NCBI GenBank assembly: GCA_016218085.1
Contig: JACREY010000017.1
Span: 1-64,000 of the forward strand
Length of the DNA stretch: 64,000 nt
Reading direction: 5' to 3'
Source of the DNA: Ignavibacteriota bacterium
GTDB taxonomy: Bacteria > Bacteroidota > Ignavibacteria > Tepidaquicellales > Tepidaquicellaceae
Positions 11,255-12,530 of this stretch are shown in pieces. Within the stretch, counting starts at the first letter, position 1; each line of letters begins with the position of its first letter. The notes under the pieces are model-generated. The model was given only the letters and a program-made list of their open reading frames with translations, was not told where the DNA came from and searched no databases. Both the position numbers and the translations under genes were made by a program.

Positions 11255-11318
11255 TATTCGACCTCCGCTACGGCGTACGCCACAGCGCATCGTTGAGATC
11301 TGCGACCTACGGGGTATA
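11255..11318. repeat. Mosaic repeat, GATCGTTGAGATC type
   Basis: Compound unit CCTCCGCTACGGCGTACGCC followed by CGCATCGTTGAGATCTGCG and ACCTACGGGGTA. The same order of modules occurs at about 11817-11862, 12000-12054 and, in shortened form, 12128-12158. Non-coding. Confidence 0.75.
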
Positions 11319-12188: not shown

Positions 12189-12530
12189 TTATCTAAACAT
12201 TCCCACGAATTTACTGCCTTTATTCCATTTTGCCTGATAGTCGTATTTGCAGAAATACACTTTCAGGTCTGCCTGATAGTCATAGTCGGTGAAATAGACC
12301 TTAGCATTTGCCTGATAGTCATATTTGCAGAAAAACCAGATATAATCCTTTCCGTTCGCCTGATAGTCATAGTCGCAGACATACACAATAAGGTCTGCCT
12401 GATAGTCGTAGTCGCAGGCAAATATTTTCACATCAGCCTGATAGTCATATTTAGTCCTGTAGATGCTGCCTGCATTTGCGAGACCTGCAGTAAAGATTAA
12501 CAAAACAAGTAAAAATGCTAATTTTTTCAT
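12189..12530 (-). CDS. Secreted 7(1) septoil-knot (DUF6150) protein, six YDYQA repeats
   Basis: A 113-residue protein with a clear signal peptide (residues 1-20, cleavage after LANA). The mature part is six repeats, each with YDYQA at residues 28, 41, 54, 70, 83 and 96. The spacing is 13, 13, 16, 13, 13, so two triplets are separated by a centre with NGKDYIWFFCK. From memory this layout (short beta-strand repeats with a central NGKD..W segment) matches the family formerly called DUF6150, now named for its predicted 7(1) torus knot. Four cysteines occur in the strand parts. At DNA level the 11-bp core GCCTGATAGTC is identical in all six repeats (starts 12232, 12271, 12310, 12358, 12397, 12436). 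The function is unknown; it is expected to be periplasmic or extracellular. Confidence 0.78.
   Translation of the reverse strand: MKKLAFLLVLLIFTAGLANAGSIYRTKYDYQADVKIFACDYDYQADLIVYVCDYDYQANGKDYIWFFCKYDYQANAKVYFTDYDYQADLKVYFCKYDYQAKWNKGSKFVGMFR

Follow-up and report, generated by a model that had tools for sequence, protein, structure and literature searches.

Six motifs of a bacterial DUF6150 protein probably change together because its fold requires matching copies

The Ureaplasma protein Q9PR55 was predicted to form a 7_1 knot (PMC9278004), and this topology has since been confirmed crystallographically (PDB 8IWA, 8IWB, 8JRM; PMC11223836, PMC13352647). A homologue of Q9PR55, the 112-residue protein P73136, is predicted to form a 5_1 knot (PMC9278004), and a β-solenoid with a 3_1 knot, the Knotted Solenoid fold, has been described in Caulobacteraceae and their relatives (PMC13123833). 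Predicted knots call for some caution: AlphaFold reportedly takes no account of topological barriers, and the knots it generates for tandem constructs are reported as probably false (PMC10672856). The repeat family DUF6150 may bear on the question of how complex knots originate and remain evolvable. Here, we analyze a member of this family encoded in a 64,000-nucleotide stretch of contig JACREY010000017.1 from an Ignavibacteriota bacterium (hereafter the window), with a specific focus on why its six motifs are identical. The features of the gene are as follows:

12189..12530, minus strand: DUF6150 (PF19647) gene, 113 aa plus stop (open reading frame; Pfam E 3.1e-18)
12471..12530, minus strand: putative signal peptide, residues 1-20 (MKKLAFLLVLLIFTAGLANA), assigned by inspection from its basic start, hydrophobic core and ANA|G
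12435..12449, minus strand: repeat motif 1, YDYQA, residues 28-32, located in the sequence
12396..12410, minus strand: repeat motif 2, YDYQA, residues 41-45, located in the sequence
12357..12371, minus strand: repeat motif 3, YDYQA, residues 54-58, located in the sequence
12330..12356, minus strand: centre NGKDYIWFF, residues 59-67, with W65 invariant in the 104-sequence alignment
12309..12323, minus strand: repeat motif 4, YDYQA, residues 70-74, located in the sequence
12270..12284, minus strand: repeat motif 5, YDYQA, residues 83-87, located in the sequence
12231..12245, minus strand: repeat motif 6, YDYQA, residues 96-100, located in the sequence

The N-terminus reads MKKLAFLLVLLIFTAGLANA|GS.. 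and, by inspection, resembles a signal peptide. The layout given by the initial annotation, with six YDYQA motifs starting at residues 28, 41, 54, 70, 83 and 96 (spacing 13, 13, 16, 13, 13) around the centre at residues 59-67, is correct, and so is its observation that an 11-bp core, GCCTGATAGTC, is the same in all six repeats: The only copies in the window lie at 12232, 12271, 12310, 12358, 12397 and 12436. This core encodes D-Y-Q-A as GAC TAT CAG GC; outside it the flanking tyrosine is written TAT four times and TAC twice, and the third base of the alanine codon is T, A, G, A, A and A. Four cysteines (C39, C52, C68, C94; window 12247-12416) each stand two residues ahead of a motif, in repeats 2, 3, 4 and 6. 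The same four occur in the nearest named relative, L052, an Ignavibacteriae metagenome-assembled genome whose mature protein shows 75% identity to ours; they could form disulfides or bind a metal.

The protein clearly belongs to the already known family DUF6150. The Pfam model PF19647, which the annotation had cited, matches residues 18-107 with 66 bits (cut-off 27) and covers profile positions 6-94 of 98; the copy of Pfam searched names it DUF6150 and not septoil knot. The six YxxxA units align in register with those of the family, the central tryptophan and the signal peptide are shared as well, and nothing essential differs, whereas the combination of YDYQA with four cysteines two residues before the motif is common to L052 and absent from most of PF19647. 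NCBIfam gave no match for the 113-aa protein, no relative was found in the viral contigs and plasmids searched, and the literature searched contains no paper that mentions DUF6150, PF19647 or septknot by name, nor did septoil yield one. Members occur in 31 of 44 genomes belonging to the order, in 20 of 395 genomes drawn from the phylum and in 0 of 14 control genomes. A scan of genome contigs retrieved stretches in which at least 487 relatives were confirmed; going by record title, the best 80 are mostly of Bacteroidota type (Bacteroidales, Flavobacteriales, Ignavibacteriae, Chlorobi), with some from Coatesbacteria, Fermentibacteria, Aminicenantes and Spirochaetes. Two neighboring genes, presumably a glucan phosphorylase and a DUF971-like gene judging from our own reading of their sequences, are kept in L052, L053, L054 and L139; among the neighborhoods compared, synteny is conserved inside clades and no functional partner was found across clades.

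The AlphaFold2 model of the protein, computed from 104 sequences (pLDDT 95.2, pTM 0.82), contains six strands, and after each of them the motif forms a one-turn helix of 3-4 residues. In a Foldseek search of this model against the PDB the best four matches are all Q9PR55 (E 0.02-0.17, rmsd about 10 Å), at a TM-score of 0.29-0.38, where the same overall fold would call for more than 0.5; this score is taken from Foldseek's own alignment, and a shifted repeat register could have lowered it. The fifth match has an E-value of 3.2. The model therein displays a specific local likeness to Q9PR55 without global superposition. Q9PR55 is similar in size, but it shares only 9-11% identity with the 113-aa protein and has no detectable sequence homology: Neither phmmer (E up to 1) nor the 104-sequence profile (E up to 10) retrieved it from all PDB chains, and the PDB sequence searches yielded chance-level matches only. 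P73136 is a small torus-knot candidate of similar length, and the Knotted Solenoid fold, a repeat-built, knotted bacterial protein, is absent among the matches. A viral fold library gave no match to the model. With a low TM-score, no sequence link to Q9PR55 found and AlphaFold's reported neglect of topological barriers, the 7_1 knot to which the annotation refers is not established for this protein by the predicted model; the topology of the six-unit fold is possibly that of a torus-type knot related to Q9PR55.

A signal that extends across the family is stronger than the one the annotation had seen, namely that the motif words are uniform within a protein and different between proteins. In a position-by-position comparison of the units of 121 aligned relatives, the within-protein match at motif positions 1-4 is 0.90, 0.78, 0.97 and 0.91, independent of repeat number, as against 0.76, 0.32, 0.45 and 0.68 between proteins. 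Strand positions -7, -5, -3, +5 and +6 show the reverse pattern, being specific to the repeat number and common between proteins. Mean within-protein motif identity amounts to 0.889, compared to 0.559 (sd 0.005) after shuffling of the words among proteins. The words found across the family include YESQ, YDYQ, YEYQ, YENQ, YKSE, WKSE, YESR, QSYN and AEYK, and twelve four-letter words reach five or more copies in a single protein. Of 199 proteins, 183 have one and the same middle residue throughout, and small and aromatic middle residues are mixed in just one (L165); all of these lockstep counts, like those of covariation, are inflated by relatedness. The 52 held-out genes reproduced both the behavior of the middle residue (0.94 vs 0.65) and the strand pattern; the weak uniformity seen at strand positions -6 and -2 did not recur in them. 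Lockstep is strict solely for the middle residue, since position 2 is only weakly uniform in these held-out genes (0.30 vs 0.20), which are mostly of flavobacterial type, and this mostly in one order with words of the YASQA/YESRA kind. Covariation between repeats in mixed proteins gave no clear neighbor map. On a tree built without the motif columns, tyrosine and small residues have switched at least nine times at support 80, five times at 90 and three times at 95, as compared to 27 switches under shuffled labels (9 vs 27); the number of independent switches is uncertain because the tree has 62 columns, is poorly resolved and carries few starred branches.

Identical words could be produced at the level of DNA, with short-tract gene conversion or replication slippage overwriting the repeats and the protein merely following, an explanation that we regard as unlikely while taking it seriously. 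In favor of it, the 11-bp core of our gene is the same six times: With the codon usage of the window (GAC 0.40, TAT 0.58, CAG 0.82), the chance of identical D, Y and Q codons in six repeats is 6.6e-4, and the Monte Carlo p for codon identity over the whole motif, with the window and about 79 kb more as codon reference, is 0.001. This value rises to 0.01-0.04 with the gene's own GAC/TAT preference outside the motif, so that the DNA identity is real but no more than mildly surprising, and the amino-acid identity is the strong signal. Across the 121 genes pooled, motif codons agree at 0.57 against 0.50 expected, and spacer codons at 0.53 against 0.51; the motif excess comes mostly from the middle position, largely serine, and from glutamine, while the first tyrosine contributes none. 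The serine codon box is shared within genes at 0.81 as opposed to 0.54 when shuffled across genes. Codon identity reaches p<0.05 in 30 of the 121 genes (about 6 expected) and p<0.001 in 5, the held-out genes show an excess in 7 of 59, and in the extreme case of L116 all 70 of 70 codon pairs match and the 15-bp word TAC GAG TCG CAA GCC recurs in 5 of 6 repeats. Given the excess in 30 of 121 genes and the 70 matching pairs of L116, homogenisation of DNA does occur at least sometimes. Several observations speak against it as the general cause: In L052, which also has six YDYQA motifs, codon identity is 40/75 where 40.0 is expected (p 0.51), and most other genes with six identical words likewise have codons at chance. 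In the same order, 11 genomes retain the serine boxes TTTATT repeat for repeat, which shows that repeat 4 has not been overwritten in any of them; rare uniform words are written with mixed codons (YESRA in L254 with AGG and CGN, and also L244); and strand positions only a few bases away remain repeat-specific. Of the ongoing homogenisation that the annotation proposed, the mild codon excess in this gene and the excess in a minority of genes stand, whereas the chance-level codons of L052 leave the claim weak at best, and the synonymous divergence of repeats in orthologues speaks largely against it. Occasional DNA homogenisation in some lineages, this gene possibly among them, is what the codons suggest, and identical protein repeats need not imply it. 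The annotation's alternative was a recent origin of the repeats; a 39-bp unit would then have been duplicated in tandem too short a time ago for its copies to diverge. This draws on the 39-bp spacing and the 51-79% unit identity, and we consider it highly improbable. Across several phyla the whole family, L052 included, has the same six units in register, with spacers particular to each repeat, and the spacers of our gene are closer to the same-number repeat of L052 (0.68) than to one another (0.49), so the repeats are not alike across their length. Since dN between the two genes is 0.20 and dS 2.4, with 30 of 30 motif residues identical, recent duplication is refuted for this gene; an ancient origin of the family by duplication is likely. 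The 15-bp motif alone reverses the spacer pattern, with 0.92 within our gene as against 0.88 to L052.

Uniformity might also be nothing but inheritance from an ancient uniform array that split early into a few conserved word types and switched rarely, which fits the low number of switches relative to shuffled labels, the clade-wide occurrence of many words and the grouping of most Lys-Ser-acid words in one supported clade. This is a doubtful account of the data, since adjacent paralogues of one genome differ in all six words: L061:5326-6339, the clearest single case, holds three tandem DUF6150 paralogues (YEYQA, YESQA and a mostly-YESGA copy), the first two of which have spacers that are 77% identical in DNA and yet carry six tyrosines versus six serines in their words, and at L084:5717-6333 tandem paralogues carry YEYQA versus YKSDA. 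Single genomes moreover have the idiosyncratic words QSYNA, AEYKA, YESRA and HxHQA, and conservation alone would still require selection because the silent sites are saturated. Selection could in turn act on binding, with the six motifs as equivalent sites, as in multivalent lectins, and the word as a specificity code in which a change of ligand drives all six; we think this improbable. The protein is small and secreted, each motif is a turn at a strand end, tandem paralogues differ in the word while keeping the scaffold, and nearly every site has at least one aromatic residue together with polar residues. However, neither the PDB nor the viral fold library revealed a lectin or other binding relative by fold, the complementarity of charge and size within the motif resembles packing, and the surroundings consist of housekeeping-type genes.

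Selection on the folded protein is favored because silent sites are near chance while the words stay uniform, and it is a simpler common cause of uniform words than a DNA mechanism. That protein-level selection in a closed pseudo-symmetric fold keeps the six words matched is the best explanation overall, and one that we hold to be somewhat better than an even bet; the six words thus probably change together since the folded protein needs the match, rather than through overwriting of DNA. The more specific proposal, that a closed, pseudo-symmetric and possibly knotted fold tolerates no turns but matching ones, leaving about a dozen interchangeable six-fold words and almost no mixtures of small and aromatic residues, is tentative, falling a little short of even. 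On the model, the secreted protein of about 10 kDa consists of six 13-residue units, each a β-strand plus a one-turn helix formed by YxxxA, and model confidence, size and residue pattern suggest that these units close into one compact pseudo-symmetric core. The strands would be position-specific because the winding order assigns a different place to each, whereas all six turns would lie in equivalent surroundings, where they may touch each other or a shared feature such that an odd turn is disfavored. Selection on the protein would then hold the six words identical and let them switch as a set, as the statistics show they do, with the contacts as the presumed mechanism. The residues within the motif fit what is expected for packed contacts: Positions 2 and 4 pair complementary or neutral charges (base-acid 108, acid-base 52, acid-acid 2, base-base 1), 880 of the 886 motifs with a small residue in the middle begin with an aromatic one, and 41 of 296 motifs with tyrosine in the middle have a first residue that is not aromatic. 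Taken with the strand pattern, these residues point to six equivalent turns packed around a core of uniquely placed strands. As to its role, we can only guess at a very stable extracytoplasmic protein that might present six copies of a small surface for multivalent binding. If the fold does require matching, DUF6150 would cleanly exemplify strong epistasis between distant sites and lend itself readily to tests of how symmetric, possibly knotted chains fold: The protein is small and easily made and comes in many natural six-fold variants, and its rare mixed forms and decayed paralogues serve as controls.

Such a decayed paralogue exists in the same genome, where a second copy (L002, C21:253858-254175) with 40% identity reads SESKA YENQA YENQS DENGA YENQA NESLA. 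Both L002 and L227 are second copies with non-uniform words and intact-looking strands and thus represent natural loss of uniformity. In L226, four words have turned into SFPD and two remain as KSEA/KSLA, whereas L172 has HxHQA in 6 of 6 repeats and therefore twelve histidines, so that a metal-binding variant is conceivable. L229:991-1707 and L230:1501-2151 have five repeats with YAYEA words and no signal peptide and appear cytoplasmic; behind their repeats come a low-complexity serine linker, then a membrane helix and lastly an SH3-like tail, and a fold prediction from just these two sequences reached a pLDDT of 35. Finally, a 21-bp sequence, TGAGATCTTCGACCTTCGGGG, adjoins the gene at window positions 11294, 11839 and 12032 and is absent elsewhere in the genome (≤2 mismatches); its copies are part of a longer repeat-rich intergenic stretch.
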